This document shows, piece after piece, positions 5,963 to 56,927 of a stretch of DNA of 64,000 nucleotides; within the stretch, counting starts at the first letter, position 1, and each line of letters begins with the position of its first letter. The notes under the pieces are model-generated. The model searched no databases. It was given only the letters and a program-made list of their open reading frames with translations, and had not been told where the DNA came from. The position numbers and the translations under genes were made by a program. Origin of the DNA: Hypericum androsaemum (Eukaryota > Streptophyta > Magnoliopsida > Malpighiales > Hypericaceae). The stretch spans positions 6,981,487 through 7,045,486 of the forward strand of contig OZ023181.1 of NCBI GenBank assembly GCA_963995505.1, written 5' to 3'.

Positions 5963-6477
5963 CATATTCATGAATTCCGATCCTTTTTCTTAGTGGTCCT
6001 GAGTTCTTCTTGGACAATCCTTCTTCATGTGCCTCTTTTCGCTGCACTTGAAGCAATTTTCTTTGAACCTCCTTGACCCCGACTTGGATCCTCTTTCATC
6101 TTTTTCTTCACTACGACCATTGTTACTCCTCACAACCAACCCTTTTATTCGTTCATCGCCAGTTTTTCTCGTTGATGATACCCTAGAAGAGCACTTGTGA
6201 TATCATCTGTTACCAGGACTTCCTTTCCCCAAGTTAGAGTTGTAATCAAACTTTCGTAAGAACTTGGTAAGAAATTCAGTAGCAACAATGCCTTGTCATC
6301 ATCCTCGAACTCTGCATCGACCCTTACAAATCACTTACTAGTTGATTGAAACCGTTAATGTATTGGCTCAAATCTGAGTCCTCCATCATCTTAAATCCGT
6401 ACAAACTTTGCTTAAGATAAAGCTTGTTTTACAGAGGCTTTAATGTATTCATATGCTCTAATTTCTTGCATACCCCA

Positions 6478-14246: not shown

Positions 14247-14289
14247 GTGTGCACCCTTAAATAGCTAGAGCCTGACCAAAATTGATTTT

Positions 14290-14976
14290 ATGGCTGACCC
14301 AAATAATACTCCCAATCCCACCACCGGTTATCATCATCCATATCAACCTCCATTAACACCACCACCACCTCCACTCTCTAGCCCTAACCCTATCCCTGTC
14401 CCTTCAACAAGACGACCCGCCTTCTCGTCCTCTTCGAAACGGCACCCGACATACAGGGGGATAAGGTTTAGGAGCGGGAAATGGGTCTCCGAGATAAGGG
14501 AGCCCAAGAAGGCTAACCGTATCTGGCTTGGTACCTTTGCAACGCCGGAGATGGCGGCCGCTGCCTATGACGTGGCCGCCCTAGCCCTAAAAGGAACGGA
14601 TGCAACCCTCAATTTCCCTTTCAACGTAGGCACGTACCCGGTGCCTGCTTCCGCCTCACCCGCGGATATACGAAACGCTGCGACCGCGGCCGCAGCTGCC
14701 CTAAAGGTGGAAGAGGGTGAATCTAGTGGTGTTCAACTAGGGCAACCAAGTGCTAGTGGTGGGGATGAGACTATTGGAGGAGTTACTAATCTGTGTGTAA
14801 GTGGTGATCAAGGGCAGGGGTTTGTGGACGAGGATGCACTGTTTGATATGCCAAATTTGTTGGTGGACATGGCCGGAGGGATGATGGTCTCCCCGCCGCG
14901 AATAGGCTCGCCGTCGTCAACCGATGACTCCCCGGGGAACTTTTCTGACGGAGAGAGTTTGTGGGGTTATTTTTGA
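14290..14976 (+). CDS. DREB-subfamily AP2/ERF transcription factor
   Basis: An intact intronless gene of 228 residues. A proline/serine-rich N-terminus leads into one AP2/ERF domain at about residues 53-112, with [20 protein letters not shown], then RIWLGTF and [14 protein letters not shown]. The valine and glutamate at the positions that mark DREB-type DNA specificity are present (WVSEIREP). The domain resembles the group III/A-4 DREB proteins (TINY/ERF025-029-like). The C-terminal half is acidic and ends in SLWGYF, comparable to the LWSF/LWNY ending of that group, probably an activation region. It should act in the nucleus, binding GCC or DRE/CRT-type promoter elements. The ATG at 14290 is the first in frame. 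It stands alone between transposon-rich spacers, and which member of the subgroup it is cannot be fixed here. Confidence 0.93.
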
Positions 14977-18335: not shown

Positions 18336-21200
18336 CAATGTAATTTAGATTTTCTTGAAACGAAGACATTTAGTGAATGACATGGCCGTTGAATAGGGTA
18401 ACTTATTGATGATGGGTTAGTTCAATAAATTACCAAAATCGATCCAAAATTTTAAATATATTTTTAGAAAACACTATTCTCTTTCTAGCTCTTCCGAGGA
18501 AACCTCACCCAAACACCGCTCCGCCCATCACTACCATCCACTTCCCGCTTAACCTTGGTGCTTTAGCGGGTAGTTAAGTTGGTGCTTTAGCTTTTGCTTT
18601 AGTTTCAATATATATTGATGAAGTTATCCTAAAACAAATATGCAGTGTATACTTGGGTTTTGGCAAGTTGGAAATTTTAGACAAACCCACCGACCAGTGT
18701 CATCGTGAATTATCCAAGATTCCTTTTGTGTATAAGTTTGACCATGTCTTTACCAGCTTGCTTTTATGGAAAATGGGCAAAAGGAGAAGTTTGAAGTCGG
18801 CCACCAAACCTATAACTGAAAAGGATGCCTTCATTAGTTGTTGAAAAGTTGCGCAATCTCCTTTTTAAAAAGAGGAAAAAAAGTTATATAATTTTTTATT
18901 TTCGATATGTTCCCCATTTAACTCACAATTATTAAGGCATGTGGGGAAAAAGATTTTGAAGCGAAACATGGCCGACACTCGACTCGCGGAAAAAAAGATG
19001 AGCATCGATGATCAGCCACGGTCATTTATCACACAAATCATAAAAAAGAATTGAAAATTCTGTGAAGCTTTTAAAAGATTAGAACTGAATTTTCGTTAAT
19101 TTGTAATTGTTTCGTACCATCACGCCAAATATCTTTGGTATTGATCCTGTTATCCTGACTAAAAGGGTAATATTCATTACATGGGACGGTTAGGTTAGCA
19201 AATAAGAAATTTGCTTCATTAGTCAAATATGGTGGAGTAAATCTACTAAGAAAATCTATCGTATGAAAAATTGGTAGTAAAATTTATTTACGCTTGGATG
19301 TTCAACATTTATGTTTGTTTCTAGAAGGTAAGTATGATTTTTTTAAAGGTAAATTTTTATGCCATGCAAACGTTTGAACTTTGTACCTCATTGAATTTTT
19401 ACAATGCCTTGTATTGTTATGTTACATATCTTTGACATAGAAGGCAAGTATGATTAGCTGTTGTTGATAACAATCTTATTCAGGGGGTTGGAATGGGTAC
19501 GGAATGCCACTATTCCGAACCATTTAGAATGAAGACACGTGGAAATTTTTTTGCAAACGCGCTAAAATATGGGGACCAAAATAAAAAAAGTCACGCACAA
19601 ACACAGGTCGGATACAAATGTCATTATCACATAACTGCGCATGCCAGTATCACATAACTATACATGCCAGTGTGATATTTTTGTAAAAATGCTAAAATAC
19701 GGGGGACCAAAATAAAAAAAACTATGCATGCCATTATTATCAACGAGGACTTGCCGTTTTCACAAAAATAAATATCATTATCACATAACTGTACTTGTCA
19801 TTATCACATAACTGCGTTTGCTGCTGCAGTCTCCTTCACTCCAAAATGTTCGAAATCAATTTCTTCACTCCGTACCCAATCCAAAGCTCTTATTCAGAAT
19901 ATCGGAACGTTGAGGATAAATTTGGAGTAGTTATCTCTAAATTGAAGAGAAAAGATATCTCGGATAAAAGAAGAGAAGGGTAAGGAAAGACAGAAATTAG
20001 AGTAAAGATAAAAATAGATTAGACTAAGTTAGCAATTGCTTCATTAACTGGCCGGGCAATGTAAGCATGCCAATTAGGCTCTGATGCGAATCAATTCTCG
20101 GTTATTAGATTAAAAAGATGTATAATGGCAAATATTATTTTTCAATTAAAAAATGAGAGAAGTTACAGAGTATTTGATTCCAAAATTTACATCTTATATG
20201 AACTCTATCTTTGAAAAGAGTTTTTTCTTATTTATTATGATAAATATATTAGGATACATGTTGTAGTTGTTTTATTTTTGTTTCAATTATCTTATAAAGT
20301 TTTTTACCTTATTAGGATATACATGTGCACACATCTATTCTTTTATCATCTTAAATAATCCATTATTGTTTTTCATTCTTCTCTGCTAACTGTATTTACG
20401 TTGTCTAATATACTTATAATCTTTTAAACTCCTTTTCGCGATCATTTAGGATGAAGATTTTGGATCCGTCCTAATTTCTGTGTTCTCTAAACAAAATTTA
20501 TTATTAGCAAGTAATTTGATGATTGTTGCTATAGAGTGACTAATATTTTTTAAAATAAAAATAATAGGCATTGTCACGCCTGCAATTTGTCATAGTCAAT
20601 ACTGTAAAATCCTATTTAATCGGGTGACTTAATCATTATTATTTTTATATTAGTAAATTTTGAATTTAAATTTATTTAAACGAATCCAAATTTCTAACAA
20701 CCTATATCAAACCCTGTTGGTTTAGTAATCTTACTTTGCATAACAGACCTGTGATATAATACTGACACGGCATCGACGTGGACAAATCGACTTTGCAAAC
20801 GTACGGACGATGAAAGGTGAAAGTTTAATTTTTTGGATTGTCTTTAAATTTCTCACATCGCACATCAATTGTCATTTCCCTACAGTAAAAGCTCGTTTCC
20901 TTGTGGTTCCAATAGTTTTTTTAAGGTTTCCCTACAAAAAAACAGTTTTTTAAGGTTGGCTTTCAAAGCCTAGTATTAATCCATACTCTTACGATAGATG
21001 AAAGCAAAATACAGAGACATTAAACTGAAGACATAAACTAGACCTAGTACGATAGAGCATAGATATAAAAGAAGAAGCCATTGATGGCAACATGACATAG
21101 TTGGTTTTAACGGCTACAACAACGGCTACAAGAGCCGACGTCCTCTCTAGAAAGGAAAATTTAACCGAAGTAATGCTAACCAAAATGGCAGCTGAAAAAT
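18336..21200. other. Gene-free interval with short repeats and an LTR-like relic
   Basis: No gene is supported. A phrase of the type TATCACATAACTG plus CATGCC repeats irregularly at about 19620-19815. About 20090-20520 is AT-rich and carries the TTTTCGCGATCATTTAGG block shared with the LTR-like relics at 8.4 and 35 kb. Confidence 0.6.
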
Positions 21201-21475
21201 GGGTTTTTTTTTTCTGAATGGTATTACTATTCATCACTTTTTGTGAAAAAAGTGTCCGATTTGAAAGTATTGCGGGGACGGTGTCCACGTGGCACGGACG
21301 CCGAAAAAAGTCGGATCTTGGACCAAGATCCGACTTTTTTTGTCGGATGACCAAGATCTGACTTTTTTAGTCAGATATATCATCCGACTAAAAAAGTCGG
21401 ATCTTGGTCCAAGATCTGACCGTTTTTGTCGGATGACCAAGATCCGACTTTTTTTGTCGGATCTTGGTCGATAAT
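21201..21475 (+). repeat. Left TIR and subterminal palindromic array of the MULE
   Basis: The TIR (21201-21341) runs into an array built from GTCGGATCTTGG and its complement CCAAGATCCGAC, in head-to-head pairs separated by T-runs, to about 21475. Each pair can fold into a hairpin. Such subterminal repeats are plausible transposase-binding or structural sites. Confidence 0.85.
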
Positions 21476-21599
21476 CCTATCCGCTGTAAAGTGGATTTCC
21501 GAAGGATATCGAGATCCAACTATAACAAGATCCAACAAAAAAAGTCAGATTTCGGTCGGTATAAACACCAAAATCTGACTTTTTCCGTCGCTCACACTC

Positions 21600-22262
21600 C
21601 CGTCCCCGACTAATCCTCGCCTTCCCTCGCTTCGTCTGTCCCGCTCGCCTCGCCGCTCCCCGCTCCCGGTCGCCGCTGCCCGCTCCCCGCTCCCGCTCCC
21701 CGCTCCCGCTCCTCGCTCCCCGCTCCCCGCTCCCCGCTCCCCGCTCCCCGCCCCCCGCCCCCGCTCCCCGCTCCCCGCTCAACGCTCGCCGCTCCTGCTC
21801 GCCGGCTCGCCCGCCTCTCGGTCCGGCCCCCGACGTCGTATTAGGTAAAATTTTTAATTAGTTAATTTTTTAATTAGTTAATTGTGAATGTTAGTTAATT
21901 GGTAAATTGGTGATGTTAGTTAATTGGTTAATTGTTGATGTTAGTTAATTGGTTAATTGTTGATGTTGGTTAATTGTAATTTGTAGATAATTGGTTAAAA
22001 AAAATTTGGTCCGAATGGTGCGACCAAAATTTCGGTCTGACCGGTCTGGCCAAAAAATTGATCAGACCAAATTGACCAATTTATGGTCCGACCGGTTTGA
22101 CCAAAAGATGGTCCGACCAGTTTGACCGAAAGATGGTCCGACCGGTTTGACCGAAAGATGGTCCGACAGGTTTGACCGAAAGATAGTCCGACCGATTTGA
22201 CCGAAAGATGGTCCGGCCAGTTTGACCAAAATAAGGTCTGAGTGGTTTGACCGTTAAACACT
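21600..22262. repeat. GC-rich tract, GTTAATT repeats and 25-bp GGTCCGACC tandem repeats
   Basis: 21640-21790 is a low-complexity (CGCTCCC)n tract. 21850-21980 repeats GTTAGTTAATTGGTTAATTG. 22015-22262 is a tandem array with a unit of about 25 bp, built on GGTCCGACCGGTTTGACC plus GAAAGAT, around eight copies with scattered changes. It lies upstream of the PMD gene. The apparent minus-strand frames across these tracts are repeat artefacts. Confidence 0.85.
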
Positions 22263-22416
22263 GTGACCGTAATATGGTCTGTAATAACGCTATTTTAATT
22301 AATTTTTTGATTAATGTTCTAATTGTTCAATGTTTAACATTGTTGGATTTGCTAAGTTTGTTAATATATCGGTAAGTTAATATAATGTTCTAATATGTCT
22401 ATTGTGTTGTTTAGAT

Positions 22417-25266
22417 ATGGATGCACAGCCATACGGGCATCTTCTAGGGAATGGAGGACCCTTAGATACGTCGGTATTAGTGCACCAGGATGTGCACCGT
22501 TCTCAGGACGTGTGGAACCGTGAGGTTCGTGAAGGGATTAACGATAATCAGGACACATTGTTGAAGATACATCGACGGAAATGGACGGTGTCTCATGTGC
22601 AGAACGAGGCCTTTATAGCCTATATGAAGGAGGCAGGTTTCTGGGATGTGTGGTGTATTGGCTGGGTCGTTCTCGAAACAGCATTTGTTACAGCCTTGGT
22701 GGAGCGGTGGCGGCCCGAGACCCATACGTTCCATATGCCTGTGGGTGAGATGACAGTTACTCTTCAGGACGTTGCTGTGTTATTCGGGCTTTCTATCGAT
22801 GGACACCCAGTAACAGGGTTGCAGACACCTCCTGATTGGCACGAGTTCTGCGTACGCCTATTTGGCAGTAACCCGGCAGATACCCCTGGAATGGTTTGGA
22901 AAAACCAAATTGCCCTTAAATGGTTCGAGGACCATTTTGACCCTGCTACTATCCCGATTGATGCTGGTGATGAGGTCGTAAAACGATATGTTCGAGCGAA
23001 CATATTGCGACTTATCGGATGCATTCTTTTTCCCGAGTCTAGTGATGCGAGGGTGAACAGATACTGGTTGCCACTTCTAGAGAATGTAGAGGCAATTGGT
23101 TCTTACAGCTGGGGTAGTGCGTGTTTGTCACACACGTACAGCCATTTATGTAGAGCCACAAGCTCGACACGTTCACTTATTGCCGGGGCGATGACGCTAG
23201 TATGTATGTGGGCTTGGGAACGGATCATCCCAAATCGTCCAGTTTTGTTAAATCCGGCAGTGCAACAACCTGGGCAAGCACTGGGCATCAGGTACAAATT
23301 ATTACTTAATGCACTGTAGCCGCTGATTAACCTTATAGACTTGACCTGATATTTTTATGTCACTGTGCAGGTGGAGTGGAAAATTTAACAGAGCGGCCAG
23401 CAAAAAAATAACAACCGTATCTGTTTACAGACGCAGGTTGGATGAGCTTAGAGAATCAGATGTAAGTAATTTGTTTATTAAATTTTAATGAATAGTTTTG
23501 ACTTAAATCATACTGTATTGCATACATATAACCATGACCATTTGGACGAGCTACGACTGTGTGCATTTGTTACAGGTTGTATGGATGCCGTATAACGACG
23601 AGATTGTTGGCAATCTCCCGACAATATGCCATCGTGATTGTGGCTTATGGTTGGCACGAGTCCCGTTGATATGCTTTTTGCATGTGGAGTGGCATTATCC
23701 TGATCGGGTGTTACGACAGTTCGGATTACTCCAGGGTATTCCGGCTAGCCCTGAGATCGATGAGGCGACACATAGTGCGGTGGATGGTCAGGGTCAGGCT
23801 GGCCAAAATTGGAATGCTATTTACGAAGGCCATGTGAAGATCTGGGTGGAATTTCGGACAAGATATGTGTATCGCGGAGTACCTACATCACCGTATATCC
23901 ATTATCATGATGGATATATGGATTGGTACAGGAAGATTACTCGGCGATTCATCAGCCCTGCTAGCGCAATGTTACACATGAGTGTAAGTCAATTTAGCTA
24001 TGTTAAATAAAGATGTTGTCTATTTTAATTTTAATAGCGATGTTCCACAATGCTAATGATAATAAAATTTTATTTGTAGGCGGATGTTGTTGAGCATATA
24101 CGCCACAGGTCTTCAGACATTTCAGAAATTCAGAATTTGTCGCAGGTTGCACTTGGGTTCGCCGGCGAGCAAAGACGGTACCTAGGTCTCCGCGACAGCC
24201 AGCCACCTGTGGGACTGGCGGAGCACATGACATACGATCTTCCTCAATCAGAGAGGGTATCTGTCGTGAGACGCAAAACCACCCTTTTCAACAAGCGGCA
24301 ACCAATACCCTGGCCTGAGCCCGTACCTGGTTATCAAATGGAGCCCATGGTCTGGGAAGATTATCGGTCGAGATCGCAGATTCCAGCAAACACAGTGACG
24401 TCTCTCAGCATGGATACCTCCGCCTCTCATTCATTCTCCCAGCACACAGATTTTGGCACCCCCGGCTCCGCTTCCCAGCCGTCCCACCAGCACTCGAGTT
24501 ACGGCCTAGCCCACACTGGGGTGCCGCATTCCCAGCTGTTTACTCCCCCTAGGCAGAGGTATTTGTTTATCTTAATTTGTGGTGTTAATTATGAATTTTA
24601 TTACAATATGTTCAATTGATTTGATTTCATTATTATATAAATTTTTGGGTTTGTTATTAGGGGTGTTCTCATTGGAGACGGTACAACGGCAGCTAGGTCT
24701 GTGCAGCCGTTTTCTTACGGACTGGGCCCTTCCGGATCGGGTTTCGGCGTCGCCCCCTCCGCTGCTCATCCATTATTCAGGGACAATATATTTGGTTGGC
24801 CCCAAACTGGGGCTCATACGTCCGACACGCAGTCCAGTTTTGGTTTGACCCGGTCTGGTGTACAGACATCCCAACTATTTGAGACACCTACACAGAGGTT
24901 GGTTCTCTACAAATTGGTGTGTGTAAATTATGAATTTTATTTAAAAATTTTGAATTGATTGTATGGCTTTATTGTGTTGATAACATAATTTGTTGATTTT
25001 GATAAATTTGTATGATATTTTATAATAGGACTTCGCCACGTGATACTATAACTCATGGTAGTGGTGACTCTTCATTTGACGATCCAATCGATTTTGAGGA
25101 TGAAGAAATACCTCTGGTCCGGCGTCAGCCTAATCGGGGAGCTAGAGAGGCTGGTGTGCGATGTTTTACAGGAGGACACCTGAATGTGCCTGGAAAGGGA
25201 AAGGGGAAGGCGAATGCTCAAGCAGATAAGCATCAAAAGGAGAAGCCTCAGAAGAAGAAGAAGTAG
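22417..25266 (+). CDS. Plant mobile domain (PMD) protein, transposon-borne, 6 exons
   Basis: Exons are 22417-23291, 23371-23461, 23576-23983, 24080-24558, 24661-24897 and 25029-25266. All have GT-AG introns and consistent phase, giving 775 residues without a stop. The PMD fills about residues 25-480: FWDVWCIGWV, VTLQDVAVLFGLSIDG, YVRANILRLIGCILFP, YSWGSACLSHTYSHLCRAT, VVWMPYNDEI and HRDCGLWLARVPLI are hallmarks of the domain shared by host MAIN/MAIL proteins and by plant transposons. The tail is serine/glycine-rich and ends in a lysine cluster (QKKKK) that may be a nuclear signal. The ATG at 22417 directly follows a likely 3' splice site (TTGTTTAG), so a leader intron is possible. The end of exon 4 and exon 5 are related by duplication. 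It is convergent with the OB-fold gene, with stops 0.3 kb apart. Its role in the element is unknown; host PMD proteins act in gene silencing and genome stability. Confidence 0.9.
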
Positions 25267-25564
25267 TTTATGCTTCTGTACTAGACATTCGTTGGATGCT
25301 TTTATGACTGTATTAACTTCACTTTTTTTATGATTTGTGTTTTAGTTCTCGAAACTTTTCAAACGTTATAACTTTCTAGATAAGTATGCCGTCAAGATAT
25401 TAAACAAAGTACGGTATAAGGAAATACGACATGACAAAACTAAGAAGTGCAATACTAAAATAGGATGACAACAATCTGAAATAACAGATAAAAAAAATAT
25501 CTTTATGTTTCTCAACACGTTGTCACAATTCTCATCAGAATTCCCGGTAGGGACATATTTGCCA

Positions 25565-28275
25565 CTATTCCTTGAAAACTCGTTTAACATTCTCGTGATC
25601 AACACTGAAATGTATTCGATTTTCTTCATACGAGACATAAATCTGTTCAAAAAATACTTAATTAGGTCAATGATTATATTAAAATAATTTACTGACGACG
25701 ATGTAATGATAATATAAGCTTACATCTTTAACTAGCAACACACATCCATCACAGTAGGTACTCTCAATGTCTTGTAAACTCCCCGTGATTTCGCTAGTAG
25801 GATCCTTCATAAATTTATAGATATGAAGTCTTTGATAATTAAAAAATATGATTAAGAAACAAATAATACATTATATTATAATACCTGAAAAACTGCTCGG
25901 AAACTATTGCCGTATACATGTTTCTTCTTTTTCACGTACAGAACCATCTGCAAGTCTCTTAGTTAACAATAACATTACTTGCAAATTGCAAAATTTTCAT
26001 ATATGTACAAATGTTACCAGTGGAATTGTGATGCTTTCAGAGATTGTTTTTACATCCTCAATAGATACTCCATCAACGTTAGCTCCATACATCAAACCTA
26101 AAAAATTTAAAAATTAGATACTCCATAAATGTAAGTAACAAGTATGTATAAGTATTTTCGTAATACCGTGAGATAGAACAAATTCAATAGCTGTTGTCCA
26201 TGGTTCATTGTTGAAAATGTCATTGGCTTTGCGGTCTGCTTCAGCTCGTATGGCTTTCCTTCGAAGGGCTGATTTAGCTTCAGCTTCCTTTTTATGCAGC
26301 TCTAACCTCTTTTGTTCTTGAAGCCACTCAAAGGCCTCTGAGCCATATAGTGCCTTCAAATCGGCACCACGTCCCTCAGGATATGGTGCTGGAGGATAAG
26401 GACGACGACCATCATAGGATGGTGCTGGACGAGTTTGTTCTTGGGAATCTTCATCAGATTCTCCATTTTTCTTGAACACTTTGACCACGTTCTCATCAGT
26501 AATGCTAAATAATTTGTTGTTCGGGTATGGGGACGAGTCAACTTTTACCTGTTGAAGAACCAGAAAATCAGTAAACAACTATCTGGGACTATTGAGAAAA
26601 AAAAAAGGATATGCTCACATTTTTAAGATACAACACACATCCAGCTTCAACAAGACCGGTAGAGTCATTTATGGTACCAGTAATACTGCCTGTAGAATCC
26701 TGTAATATATTAAAAGTTTAAAAAATTTCTCACATAACATAAATATGTAAGAATAAATAAAATTCTTTTAATTGTACCTTTAATGTCGCAAGTGCGCCAA
26801 TTCCGACACGCTGAAAATGGGTCACCTCTACAACCATCTACAAGCAAATACAAAATACTTGTTATAAAATTGACTATGATGCTAACTCAAATTAAAGGAT
26901 AATGTAAAATTTCTTACCGACATAACTGTAGTACCACTATAGGTATTTTTGAAGCTCTGAATACTTGTCCCTTTAAAACAGGTTCCTATCATCATCCCTG
27001 TAAAATAAATTAAAATTTAATAAAAATATTATGTGATCCAATATAGAAATACGGAATACCTTCAACTGTCAGAAAGTCCATGGCTCTACTCCACGGTTCT
27101 GGATCTCGCTTGACAAGCTTGTAATAACAGTTGCTTTTGGTAGGTTTCTGAGGAGGGACTTCTGATCTATCGTTGGATGGCCTCTGTAATCGTTTGAAAA
27201 TATACCCAAACTTAGAACCACATAGAGCATTCCAATCGATTTGTTCTGGTTGTTCCTCTACTCGTTTCTTAATAATTTGTGCAATGAAAGCAGAAGTGAG
27301 TTGTTTATGATCCTGCGACTTTCGTAGGCGACCACAGGTATGGGGGTAGGTGTGTTTCACGATTTTCCATGGACTGAAAAGTGTGCCCCTTCTTTCCTGT
27401 GAGACACGGATCTCCCATTTGCAATCATCCGTCTCCCATTTTTTACACTTCACAGAAAAAGTTTCTGGCCTTGTTTCTTTTCGGACAAACTCACGCCCAT
27501 CGTTCATTACGAACGCCTCGATCTCCCTCTTTGCATCAAATTTGCTCTTCCAAATCGTACCCTCTTTCAACAAACCAGAACAACTTCCATCTATTGCTCG
27601 GTCGCAATCCCATTCTTCACCATAAACAGTCATCGATAATTGTTCACCGGGATCAGTTAGAGCGAGTTCACCGTATTGTTGTTCTCGGTATTGTTGTTCC
27701 TCTTCTTCTACTACTTCTTCTTCATCTTCGTCTTCTTCTGCTTCATTTTCGTCTTCTTCTGCTTCGTCTTCGTCTTCTACTTCTTCTGCTTCGTCTTCAC
27801 GATCAAAATTGTATGTGGCATATGGACCCGTCTCTCTAGGATCATTTTCAAACCAATCAAATATTGGTTCATGAGCAACATCCATCCCAGTTGACGTACT
27901 AGCTTCAACGAAAAACGGGTTGTAATTATTAACCCTCTTTTCCACAATGATTGTAAGCTTAATCTCCTTCACCATTGGTCCAAAGAAGTTAATCATGGTC
28001 TCCAGCATTATCCTAACATCTTCATCGTCGTTAATAAACATTGGACCAAATTGTCCTCTTCAAAATGGACATCTAAATATCAATGGCCCAAATTCTTCAT
28101 TTGGACCTATTGGGATCTTTTCGTTAACTTTTTTCCGCAAGATATTGTATCTAACAAATGCTGCATGAAATTTTAACTTCTCTTTCCCACCACCTTGGTA
28201 ATCAAAACCGGTTTCATTGTTGTTGAAAATTACTCCATCGTATTTCAACTTTATTCTTATAACCCGGTTAGCCAT
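25565..28275 (-). CDS. MuDR N-terminal region fused to two OB-fold modules, 9 exons, one in-frame stop
   Basis: Exons (high to low) are 28275-27060, 26997-26918, 26837-26778, 26699-26619, 26548-26167, 26097-26018, 25947-25885, 25804-25724 and 25642-25565. All have GT-AG borders and matching phase, 706 residues, with one TGA at 28062-28060. Residues 1-115 resemble the MuDR amino-terminal region (MANRVIRIKLKYDGV), and 155-195 are Asp/Glu-rich. About 240-325 is the Mutator DNA-binding domain (CKKWETDDCKWEI, then HTYPHTC). Where a DDE transposase should follow there are two repeats, each starting EPW..A..F. The first carries GIGALATLKDSTGSITGTI, GCVLYLKN and FSITDENVVKVF (about 433-510); the second carries DPTSEITGSL, GCVLLVKD and FSVDHENVKRVF (about 634-706). 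This pattern fits the HROB-type OB-fold. A Pro/Lys-rich helical linker joins them. The TGA may be a loss-of-function change; translation could alternatively start at the ATG at 28041. Confidence 0.78.
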
Positions 28276-28479
28276 TATGAATACTACAACAAAAGAAAAC
28301 AGTATGCAATTCTATATTAGCAAAACAAAACATAATTTATATTAACGAAAATATCATATAAACATACATTCTTCTCCATCAATTTTTTGGTCCGAGACCA
28401 CCTTAAGAACCAGATAAAATTTAATCGGACTGGCAGGGTGGTCACTTTTTGTACTCGACCATCCGGAATTTACCAAGAA

Positions 28480-28625
28480 AAAATTCACAATCTGACCGGT
28501 TGTTCCGGTCGGATTGGTCAGACTAACCAGACCGGTCTGACCGACCAGACCGGTCTGATCAACCCGACCAGTCCGACCGACCCGACCGGTCCAACTCATT
28601 AAACCGGTCTGGCCATTGGGGTTGG
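28480..28625. repeat. GACCGGTCTGACC-type short repeats
   Basis: Overlapping direct and inverted copies of GACCAGACCGGTCTGA and GACCCGACCGGTCC fill this stretch just upstream of the minus-strand gene. The motif resembles the 25-bp array at 22015-22262 on the other side of the element. Confidence 0.75.
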
Positions 28626-28644
28626 TCAGTTTATAAAATCCGCA

Positions 28645-28874
28645 CACCCACAAAATTTTAAATAATCAGATATCACACTCAAAAAATAGAAGGAATTAAT
28701 AATTTCAAAAGTAAAATATACTAATTATTTTTAATTAATGAACAAACTCTACATATATACACCCACAAAATTTTAAACAATCAGATATCACACTCAAAAA
28801 ATAGAAAGAATTAATAATTTCAAAGCTAAAATATACTAATTATTTTTAATTAATGAACAAACTCTACATATATA
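28645..28874. repeat. 115-bp tandem duplication
   Basis: The segment 28645-28759, beginning CACCCACAAAATTTTAAA, is repeated at 28760-28874 with only a few changes. It lies in the probable promoter region of the minus-strand MULE gene. High similarity suggests a recent duplication. Confidence 0.9.
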
Positions 28875-29001
28875 CCAAAATATTAAAGTAAATTAATTTA
28901 CCTGGTTTTGGGCAGGGTCTTCTATGGTATGCAGGACGTCTTCGTATGGATGACAAAAGGCCTCTGCGAGGTATCCATTATATAGGCCATATGATTGACC
29001 A

Positions 29002-29291
29002 AGATCCGACCAAAAAGTCGGATCTTGGACCAATATGATATATTCAAAAAAAAATGTCGGATCTTGGTCATATCTGAAATCTTCTGTTCAGATTTCGGAT
29101 ATGGCTTATCGACCAAGATCCGACTTTGTTTGTCGGATCTTGGTCATCCGAAAAAAAAAGTCAGATCTTGGTCCAAGATCTGACTTTTTTCGGCGTCCGT
29201 GCCACGTGGACACCGTCCCCGCAATACTTTCAAATCGGACGCTTTTTTCACAAAAAGTGGTGAATAGTAACACCATTCAGAAAAAAAATCC
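29002..29291 (-). repeat. Right TIR and subterminal palindromic array of the MULE
   Basis: This mirrors the left end: GACCAAGATCCGACC and GTCGGATCTTGG pairs at about 29000-29190 run into the TIR, which ends at 29291 next to the CTGAAAAAC copy of the target duplication. Confidence 0.85.
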
Positions 29292-29602
29292 CTGAAAAAC
29301 ACAGAGCTTTATTGGTTCCAATAGTTGAAAAGGCTTTATTGGTTAAGAGAATGATATTTATATCATTCTCATTGAGATTAATTCTTAGGAGCTCCTTTCT
29401 CTCCGTCCCCTTGCGTTCTCTCTGAAACCATGGTTTCAAAATTCAAAACTCCTCACCTCCTTCCCCCAAATTATTCCTAAAATTAATCCCAATTCTAAAA
29501 TCTCAGTGCATCCCTCTGTGTCTCTTCGTTCCCACTGTCGCCACCTCCATCCTTCCACCAGCGGGAAGGTCGGTTGGTGACAGTGGACCCTCCGCCCATC
29601 CC

Positions 29603-29943
29603 CCATGGTGGGCCTGACATCCTTGTTCGTCAATAACCTCCCGCCGTCATAGAAGTTCATCGACCTCCGGAATCACTTTGAGCCCTTATGTTTGGTGGTA
29701 GACATCTACGTTGCTGCCACGAGATCGAAGCAGAACTCCAAGTTCGGCTTTGTTCGAATCCCTGCCCTTGAAGATGTCGATTCTTTGGTTCTCAAGGTCA
29801 ACGGTTCACGAGTGGAGAATAAGCGAATCTTTGTGTCCAGGGAAAAGTTCGTTTGGGGTGGCTCCATGGCTCCCCCACCTTCTCCTGCTGCTCCTCTCGG
29901 GGCTTTCCCTGTTTTACCATGCGCTTGTGATGGTCCTCCTTAG
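29603..29943 (+). pseudogene. RRM fragment of a LINE ORF1-like gene
   Basis: The frame from ATG 29603 reads an RNA-recognition motif: RNP2-like SLFVNNLPPS, an in-frame TAG at 29648-29650, LRNHFEPLCLVVDIYV, then RNP1-like KFGFVRIPALEDVDS and VENKRIFVSREKF. It ends at TAG 29941-29943. RRMs with this layout open the first ORF of plant L1-type elements and also occur in splicing factors. The degenerate flanks favour a retroelement relic. Related sequence may continue beyond the LTR element inserted at 30080. Confidence 0.55.
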
Positions 29944-53820: not shown

Positions 53821-53904
53821 TGAATGGAGAGAAAGGACAGTAAAGTAAAACAGGGTGGGGACATGGCAGCGTTCCCCAGACAAACAAAGGGACTAGGCCT
53901 TCTC

Positions 53905-54035
53905 TCTCCTTCCTTCCTTCCTTCCTTCCTCTCTCTACATTTCTTTTCTCTAGTTTCCTTTTCCGTTTTCCCCAAACTACCCTTCTCTTTCTCTGCTTCA
54001 AAACGACATCGCTCTCTCTCTCTCTCTCTCTCGAG
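53905..54035 (+). repeat. (CCTT)n and (CT)n microsatellites in the PIP5K leader
   Basis: A CCTTCCTTCCTTCCTTCC run at about 53909-53930 and a (CT)n run at about 54011-54032 precede the ATG at 54102. Pyrimidine-rich leaders are common in plant genes and can affect expression. Confidence 0.8.
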
Positions 54036-54101
54036 CTTGCACTCCCATTTCTCTTCCTTCCATTTCACCTCTCTTTCGAGGAGGAAGAACATGCCGCTGT
54101 A

Positions 54102-56927
54102 ATGCAAGACCCCATCCTCCGACGCGACGCCAAGGAAGCCGACCTCCTCCTCCTCCTCGTCCCCCCTCGCCGCCACCCCACCTCCCGGCGCGTGGCTCCC
54201 ACGCGCTCCCGTTCCGGCGCGGGAGACGGGGACGCGTACACCGGGCCCCTGTCCTCCGGGAAGCCCCACGGGAAGGGGAGGTACGTGTGGTCGGACGGCT
54301 GCGTGTACGAGGGGGAGTGGAGGAAGGGGAGGCCTGATGGGAGGGGGAGGTTCTGGTGGCCGTCGGGGGCCACGTACGCGGGGGAGTTCCGCGGCGGGAG
54401 GATGGAGGGGGAGGGGGCCTTCGCCGGTGTGGAGGGCGAGTCCTATGAAGGCCAGTGGGAGGACGACCGGAAGCACGGGTTCGGGGAGAAGCGCTACGCC
54501 AATGGGGACTCGTACCGAGGGGAGTGGCGGATGAACTTGCAGGACGGGGAAGGGGAGTACCGGTGGAGCAACGGGAACGAGTACCGCGGCGGGTGGAGGA
54601 ACGGGGTGATCCATGGGAGAGGGGTTCTGGTTTGGGGGAATGGGGATAGGTACAATGGGGTTTGGGAGAATGGGGTTCCTAAGGGGAAAGGGGTTTTGTG
54701 TAGTTCCAAGTGTACTAGTGCTAGTGTTTCGGTCGATGCGGGTTTGCCTAAGATTTGCATTTGGGAGTTGGATGGCGAGGCCGGGGATATCACTTGTGAT
54801 ATTGTTGACAATGTGGATGGTTCCGCGGTTTGTAATGGTGCGTGGGAGTGTAACGAGGAGGGGGCAAGTGAGGCCGGGAATTCTCAGAAGAGTCCATCTT
54901 GGAATAGCTCTGGTGATGGAGGTGGTGGTGGTGGTGGCGCAGCGGGTGAGGTTAAGAAGCCTGGCCAGATTGTTTGTAAAGGCCACAAAAACTATGAACT
55001 TATTGTTAATCTTCAGTTGGGTATAAGGTACCAGCCCCCCTTTTTTTTGTTTTGGTTTCCTGGTTTTGTAATGGCATTGGAGATCTTTCTTATAGGAGTG
55101 GCGTCTGTTGTAAGGTATTCTGTAGGGAAGCATTCTTCGATAATGCGGGAGCTTAGCCAGAGCGATTTTGAGCCCAATGAGAAGTTTTGGACGAGGTTCC
55201 CGCCAGAAGGGTCCAAGAATACGCCTCCTCATCAGTCAGTGGATTTCAGATGGAAGGATTACTGTCCAATGGTCTTCAGGTACTTAACTTGAGCTCAAAC
55301 ATAAAAATGGTTACGCATTTGGTAAGAGTCGGAGTCTGTTGGATATTTGGGCTTGATGTCAGTTTTGTGCTATGGTGGTGATTGGTTTTCCTGGCTTTTA
55401 GACATCTGAGGGAATTGTTTGCCATAGATGCGGTTGATTATATGCTTGCCATATGTGGAAGTGATGCACTTAGGGAATTCTCTTCCCCTGGAAAGAGTGG
55501 AAGCTTCTTCTATTTGACTCAGGATGACCGCTTCATGATAAAAACTGTCAAGAAATCTGAGGTTAAGGTCAGTGAATCGTGATCTTGGCCGGTTAATAAG
55601 ATATCAACTCCAGTTTGTGGCTGTTTCAAAAAATGTTTGTGGCTTTTTCTAGGTTCTTACAAGGATGCTTCCAAGTTACTATCAGCATGTTTGCCAATAC
55701 AACAACACTTTGGTAACAAAGTTCTTTGGACTACATTGTATTAAGCTAGCAGGAGGTCCAAAGGTATATTTCGGGTTTTGCATTTTCAAATGCTTTGTTT
55801 GCCAGATAAGTTTCGTTATCCAATCATCCTTCAAAATGTGCTCCAGATCCGCTTCATTGTAATGGGAAATCTGTTTGCTTCTGAGTACCGTATCCATAAG
55901 CGTTTCGACCTAAAAGGTTCTTCTTATGGCCGCACCACGGACAAGGGCGGAGGGGAAATCGACGAGACAGTCACGCTCAAGGATCTCGATCTCGATTTTG
56001 TTTTCCGGCTAGAAAGGTCATGGTATCAAAAGCTAATCAGGTAAGTCTCTCACAAGGACTAATCTTTCTTAGTTCTCTAAACTATGTTGGTCTCCTGTGT
56101 GTCTGCATTCTGGTTTATCATTAAATTTTGATCGACTTTCAGGCAAATCAATAGAGATTGCGAGCTCTTGGAAGCTGAGGGAATTATGGATTACAGTCTC
56201 TTAGTCGGTCTACACTTCTGTGATGGTAACTGGGGTGATGAAATGAAGATGTCACCAAAGTACATGCAACCTGGTATACAGCTATCTTCATTTACTTGCC
56301 TGGCAAGGCGTTGTCTTGTTGTAATGTTTACAAATTATGCAACATGAAGTATCAGCACTTCTTGATTTAGTTCATTTTTTGGTAGAGGAGAAAAATGTGG
56401 ATCGTGATGAAATGTCAATGCGTGGTTATCATTTGCTGCCCAATATGGACTGGGTCATGGAAAGCCGGTACAAGCTGCTTTCCCTTTGTTTATCATTTAG
56501 TTTCTATATCTTTTCATTTTCTTGTTTGGTTACTTGCTCTGTTGATATCGAGACATGTGTTTCCAAAGTTTCAAGCATCTGATGATGTTCCAAGTATGAA
56601 CTTCGATGTTGCAGGGGTCCGCTCATCTGTCTTGGCGTGAATATGCCTGCACGAGCAGAGCGTGTGCCAAAGAACGAAGTTGATTATTTCACGGGGTGCG
56701 GCAGTTGCAAGGCAGTACCTTCTCAGAGCGGCGGTGGTGAGGTTTTTGACGTGGTTCTCTACTTTGGCATCATTGACATCCTCCAGGATTATGATATCAC
56801 CAAAAAGCTGGAACATGCATACAAGTCGTTGCAAGTGGATGCGACATCGATCTCGGCAGTTGATCCCAAGTTGTACTCGAAAAGGTTTCGTGATTTCGCA
56901 CATAAGATCTTCGTGGAGGACAAGTAA
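54102..56927 (+). CDS. PIP5K: Phosphatidylinositol-4-phosphate 5-kinase with MORN repeats, 8 exons
   Basis: Exons are 54102-55027, 55115-55279, 55402-55567, 55653-55763, 55847-56040, 56143-56273, 56386-56467 and 56615-56927. Introns are GT-AG in phase, giving 695 residues. Residues about 46-210 hold seven MORN repeats ([18 protein letters not shown] type), the membrane/regulatory part typical of plant type I B kinases. A glycine-rich linker follows. The kinase starts near residue 300 ([12 protein letters not shown]) and shows the ATP-site lysine in [19 protein letters not shown] [23 protein letters not shown], then [22 protein letters not shown] and the activation-loop end [12 protein letters not shown]. 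It makes PtdIns(4,5)P2 at the plasma membrane. Intron 1 is only 87 bp and stays open in frame. The linker between kinase halves (exons 6-7) diverges from better-known paralogues, so that border is the least certain. Confidence 0.94.

Follow-up and report, generated by a model that had tools for sequence, protein, structure and literature searches.

Mutator-like elements (MULEs) carry extra genes whose usefulness is for the most part unproven. In grasses and in Amborella, MULEs with a plant mobile domain (PMD) were described, in which PMD-C is fused to the transposase and for which an anti-silencing function was proposed (PMC5418596). PMD is described as found only in angiosperms (PMC8616336). 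Host PMD proteins silence transposable elements (TEs), with MAIN and MAIL1 acting in TE silencing (PMC5418596; PMC8616336), and Ikeda et al. (2017) proposed, as a speculation, that the PMDs of MULEs are anti-silencers (PMC5418596). The occurrence of PMD in MULEs is already published. The element described here, from Hypericum androsaemum, lies at 21201..29291 (8.1 kb) of a 64,000-nucleotide stretch of contig OZ023181.1 (positions 6,981,487 to 7,045,486, forward strand; the window). It is Mutator-like and bounded by terminal inverted repeats (TIRs), and from comparison with its relatives it almost certainly arose by internal deletion within a recently amplified family. In contrast to the grass and Amborella elements, PMD is encoded here by a separate, convergent multi-exon gene and is accompanied by a gene for an OB-fold protein resembling HROB.

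VANC is not known to be a PMD protein. It is the anti-silencing factor encoded by the Class II element VANDAL21 itself, which constitutes a likeness to the element described here (PMC8616336). Kaonashi MULEs also contain a non-transposase gene, encoding the ULP1 peptidase and described as one of three coding genes (PMC13317346, PMC2528002). Kaonashi are mostly non-TIR MULEs, whereas the elements described here have long TIRs and encode PMD and HROB-like OB proteins; no match to the ULP1 peptidase domain was obtained in the scanned proteins of the window and of the fuller copy L011. Pack-MULEs share with the window copy the TIRs, the non-transposase genes and the absence of a transposase core (PMC2528002). 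However, in Pack-MULEs captured genes replace the transposase and are absent from the autonomous parent, whereas here the parent family has both genes and the transposase. HROB (MCM8IP; PMC11055865, PMC11675949) shares with the element protein the OB-fold PF15072, above the curated cut-off, and the element version is encoded by a transposon and has 381 amino acids with two OB repeats. The OB-fold of HROB is reported to bind MCM9 rather than DNA and MCM8 and MCM9 to be present in most plants (PMC11055865), while HROB is described as widespread in land plants (PMC11675949, section 3.2).

The window copy and its internal deletion

An earlier note on this DNA had described a Mutator-like element with TIRs of about 140 bp, a 9-bp target duplication with one mismatch, a PMD gene and an OB-fold gene, and this description is partly confirmed. 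The TIR arms measure 157 nt with 96% complementarity and are the longest among 78 inverted-repeat pairs in 20801-29700. Long TIRs are found in many, not all, MULEs, and a genome search with the window TIR revealed related TIRs at other sites. The flanks can be read as a duplication of 8 bp exact or of 9 bp with one mismatch. A duplication of 9 nt is typical for MULEs and is found in those of grapevine (PMC2528002). Among 11 copies with both ends available, the window copy included, it is 8 bp and exact in six (L011, L017, L024, L018, L026, L010), 8 or 9 bp in L013 and 8 to 10 bp in L012, and none was found in L015 and L019. By eye, L039 of the second family (see below) has GAGAAATT on both sides. 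Inside the TIR ends (window 21300-21560 and 28990-29180), short inverted repeats of the GACCAAGATCCGACTTTTTTTGTCGGAT type are numerous, and the second family has a different repeat of the same style; possibly these are subterminal binding sites.

On the minus strand, convergent to the PMD gene, nine exons join in phase. The note had taken this frame as one of two convergent multi-exon genes with clean splice phase, which holds for the phase of the nine exons and for the intact PMD gene, but the minus-strand frame contains an in-frame TGA at codon 72 and consists of two joined genes. In 20 aligned copies the TGA site reads GGA in 18, is a gap in L020 and is TGA in the window alone. The frame's protein matches Pfam HROB in two stretches (1.9e-14) and DBD_Tnp_Mut at E 0.06, under its cut-off. 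With the window element aligned in blocks, 18 of 20 relatives showed approximately 1.9 kb of extra DNA between element positions 6041 and 6045; L012, which has another deletion, and L025, which has no match to OB or transposase, are the two exceptions. This extra DNA is transposase core sequence in line with the N-terminal remnant of the window in 12/12 copies inspected (in L012 only partly), it also holds the start of the OB gene, and the window junction was found in none of the 20 relatives aligned. Because the approximately 1.9 kb sits at 27243/27244 in 18 of the 20 relatives, the alignment identifies the minus-strand frame as a chimera, a transposase N-terminus joined in frame to a start-less OB gene by a deletion with which the MULE catalytic domain (PF10551) was lost. 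That a transposase core is lacking is consequently true of the window copy and untrue of the family. A fusion of DNA-binding domain and OB-fold as an evolved gene was considered and rejected, the sister copies showing that it was made by the deletion in this copy.

The PMD gene of the window has six exons with GT-AG introns and encodes 775 amino acids without a stop. The protein passes the Pfam PMD model (PF10536) with 6.9e-77 and 259.4 bits against a cut-off of 34.9, and the gene still looks functional. Elsewhere in the genome, eight long PMD open frames of 717-864 amino acids lie within 80 kb (L001-L008, G000:C8:16594889-16673436) and probably form a tandem array of a different type of PMD gene; L001, L002 and L005, the three compared, are only distantly similar to the element PMD.

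Fuller sister copies

Searching the 385-Mb assembly (29 contigs) for PMD yielded 135 matches; since 117 out of 858 first-look candidates were scored, these counts are lower bounds. Twenty 10-kb neighbourhoods (L010-L029) of copies resembling the window PMD match were analysed, a sample that is biased because it was picked by PMD match. Fuller copies have approximately 10 kb and three genes, with the transposase and the HROB-like OB gene on one strand and the PMD gene convergent to both. With one intron assumed, the L011 transposase comprises 870 codons without a stop and passes the MULE cut-off (PF10551, 3.8e-18), with Transposase_mut at 3.5e-6 and SWIM at 1.1e-5. Residues that we take to be the catalytic D, D and E and a CCHC-knuckle-like motif were recognized by eye. 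In L020 (G000:C16:4961655-4971654), a Q stands where the catalytic E is presumed (MTTNIAQC), and most of OB is gone.

The L011 OB gene has 381 codons, and its protein passes the HROB model (PF15072) with 1.5e-16 and 60.5 bits against a cut-off of 30.8, in two stretches. When PDB was searched by phmmer with this protein, no match was obtained at E up to 1. As the two OB repeats of the first family share internal exon lengths (80, 60 or 63, and 81 nt) and are 36% identical, an old internal duplication is suggested; the OB gene of L039 has one repeat, with exon lengths of 271, 80, 60, 81 and 132.

Frames were counted as intact if they had more than 95% of the L011 length and were in frame from ATG to stop with none inside, splice sites not being checked copy by copy. 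Among 21 copies, window included, PMD is intact in 13, transposase in 10 and OB in 13, and all three frames are intact in five (L011, L017, L018, L019 and L024, with a 15-bp in-frame OB deletion in L019). L011 and L017 differ by 0.13% and the window copy and its nearest relative L023 by 1.1% (L010, L012, L020 and L025 left out of this comparison), which is read as a recent burst. A TIR search of the genome, with 40 of 642 candidates scored, gave six opposed TIR pairs less than 11 kb apart, in the window and on C12, C10, C17, C1 and C7. Of the TIR-picked copies on C12 and C10 (about 9.9 kb), three 500-base pieces each were read, and these contain sequence of all three genes; the copy on C17 (8.0 kb) contains transposase, OB and part of PMD, and on C7 the pair is 4.7 kb apart. 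In sister copies the TIRs bound the PMD/OB unit elsewhere in the genome. Different parts were lost in different deletion copies, and copies lacking one gene are not the rule. The truncated relative L025 (G000:C3:6585757-6595756) contains element positions 881-1144 (264 bp) four times in tandem.

A second family and coding constraint

L038 and L039 belong to a second family with TIRs of 208 and 240 nt, to which the first-family TIR gives no match at E up to 1e-3. They show the layout of PMD followed by convergent OB and transposase, matching the first family in gene content and order, and the proteins of the two families are 49-71% identical over aligned stretches. Between the families the proportion of synonymous differences (pS) is 0.40-0.61 for PMD and OB and that of nonsynonymous differences (pN) 0.20-0.26. 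The ratio of nonsynonymous to synonymous substitution (dN/dS) for L011 against L038/L039 is 0.25-0.26 in PMD exon 1 and 0.30-0.32 in exon 3; for the transposase it is 0.21-0.22 in the core, 0.39-0.40 in the C-terminal exon and 0.51 in the N-terminus (L039 only), and for OB 0.37-0.39 in exon 1 and 0.40 in repeat A over 183 codons (L039).

Within the first family, variants were counted in 18 of 21 copies for PMD (without L010, L012 and L025), in 17 of 20 for the transposase (without the window copy, L012 and L020) and in 18 of 20 for OB (without L012 and L020); copies with a single frameshift were kept and read by L011 columns. Shared variants are 16 synonymous and 17 nonsynonymous for PMD (0.32) and 17 and 18 for the transposase (0.27), while singletons give 0.55, 0.65 and 0.61 for PMD, transposase and OB, respectively. 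Against the more diverged L041, L011 has 0.35 for PMD and 0.39 for the transposase. Judged from these ratios, PMD and transposase are clearly constrained, and so is OB when the families are compared with each other. The suggestion in the earlier note that both genes are under coding constraint therefore holds between families for both and within the family also for PMD, but not clearly for OB.

Alternative explanations

Taken as a whole, the locus is quite probably best explained as a deleted copy of a three-gene MULE family, whose genes may have the roles outlined below. Several observations weigh against this explanation. All splice sites and the transposase intron are predicted, and the DBD_Tnp_Mut match of the L011 transposase is below its cut-off (0.061). 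The TIR-picked copy on C1 (L045, 4.3 kb) contains the transposase only. For OB, the shared variants of the first family are four synonymous and eight nonsynonymous (0.55), L011 against L041 gives 0.83 on four synonymous and 12 nonsynonymous changes, and L038 and L039, which differ by few changes, have one synonymous and eight nonsynonymous in OB exon 1, so that from these counts the signal within families is weak and no constraint is visible. L040, which has a third TIR of 270 nt, matches PMD and transposase but not OB, and both its genes are cut mid-way. Since its PMD match ends at residue 388 and its transposase match at 656, flanking the gap, L040 is read as a deletion, although it may represent an OB-free lineage.

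The lack of clear OB constraint within families, together with the frequent capture of gene fragments by MULEs (PMC2528002), would fit PMD and OB being passengers, i.e., host captures of the Pack-MULE kind that persist only through the recent burst. We consider this quite improbable, as two families whose TIRs are unrelated share the three genes and their order, and PMD and OB have diverged between them to the pS and pN values given above. The earlier note had proposed a nonautonomous type defined by its gene pair, and a distinct element that keeps PMD and OB for mobility and borrows transposase would agree with the window copy having both genes, an intact PMD frame and no core. But its junction is found in 0/20 relatives, its OB gene, now without a start, is joined to a frame that contains a stop, and fuller members encode a MULE transposase, so that the window is one internally deleted copy and such a type is very improbable.

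A further possibility is that splicing adds OB to the transposase as its C-terminal part, so that no separate OB protein is made. The OB gene begins 178 nt past the transposase stop on the same strand, and in 19 of 24 sequences scanned, from both families, its ATG is closely preceded by an acceptor-like CAG; of the five others, the window copy, L012 and L025 are without this stretch and the pattern did not match L014 and L016. However, the distance from CAG to ATG is 8 nt in 17 first-family copies and 10 nt in both second-family copies. Because the ATG and the first residues are kept and the upstream frame is not, we take OB to be a protein in its own right; that it is spliced to the transposase is possible but unlikely.

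Features of the window

Table 1. Coordinates of the element's features in the window.
Feature	Position	Strand	Remarks
Left flanking duplication	21192-21200	no strand	CTGAAAAAT; 8 bp CTGAAAAA exact
Left TIR	21206-21362	+	157 nt, 96% complementary to 29132-29288; element start 21201
PMD gene	22417..25266	+	exons 22417-23291, 23371-23461, 23576-23983, 24080-24558, 24661-24897, 25029-25266
Truncated HROB-like OB gene	25565..27243	-	first codons lost; two OB repeats
OB repeat B exons	26548-26167, 26097-26018, 25947-25885, 25804-25724, 25642-25565	-	
OB repeat A exons	27243-27060, 26997-26918, 26837-26778, 26699-26619	-	
Deletion junction	27243/27244	no strand	about 1.9 kb here in 18/20 relatives
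MULE transposase N-terminal remnant	27244..28275	-	private TGA at 28062-28060
Right TIR	29132-29288	-	partner of left arm; element end 29291
Right flanking duplication	29292-29300	no strand	CTGAAAAAC

Upstream of the element, an open frame at 14269-14976 (+) contains an AP2 domain (2.7e-11) and is probably a host transcription factor gene. Further open frames are found at 1311-2534 (+; 407 amino acids, with a weak Transposase_32 match of 3.7e-5, below cut-off), adjoined at 1-1000 by sequence that looks by eye like a retrotransposon integrase, and at 53844-55292 (+; 482 amino acids, MORN repeats, 7.9e-36).

Proposed roles and significance

The published binding of HROB to MCM9 and the silencing roles of host PMD proteins suggest how the OB and PMD products might act. 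The transposase would cut and paste the element. By analogy with the HROB OB-fold, the OB protein would recruit the MCM8-9 helicase of the host to the gap left by excision and favour its homology-directed refilling, and the PMD protein would interfere with the host MAIN/MAIL1 silencing complex. That OB steers repair and PMD evades silencing, both jointly, is put forward tentatively. The window copy could move only with the help of sister copies, because it lacks its own transposase and the chimeric frame ends prematurely.

A limited literature search, which covered neither Repbase nor most subscription papers, gave no report of a HROB-like gene in a MULE, although one may have been published. 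By itself the window copy is ordinary, and the family is of moderate interest. It is conceivable, if doubtful, that a MULE lineage took on two host-type proteins long-term, a HROB-like MCM8-9 adaptor and a PMD anti-silencer; if true, the transposon would bring along both a selector of the repair pathway and an anti-silencer. The retention of PMD and HROB-like genes alongside the same transposase in two distant families provides a concrete test system for whether transposons choose the host repair pathway after excision and whether a transposon PMD counters the PMD silencing of the host, on which Ikeda et al. had speculated.

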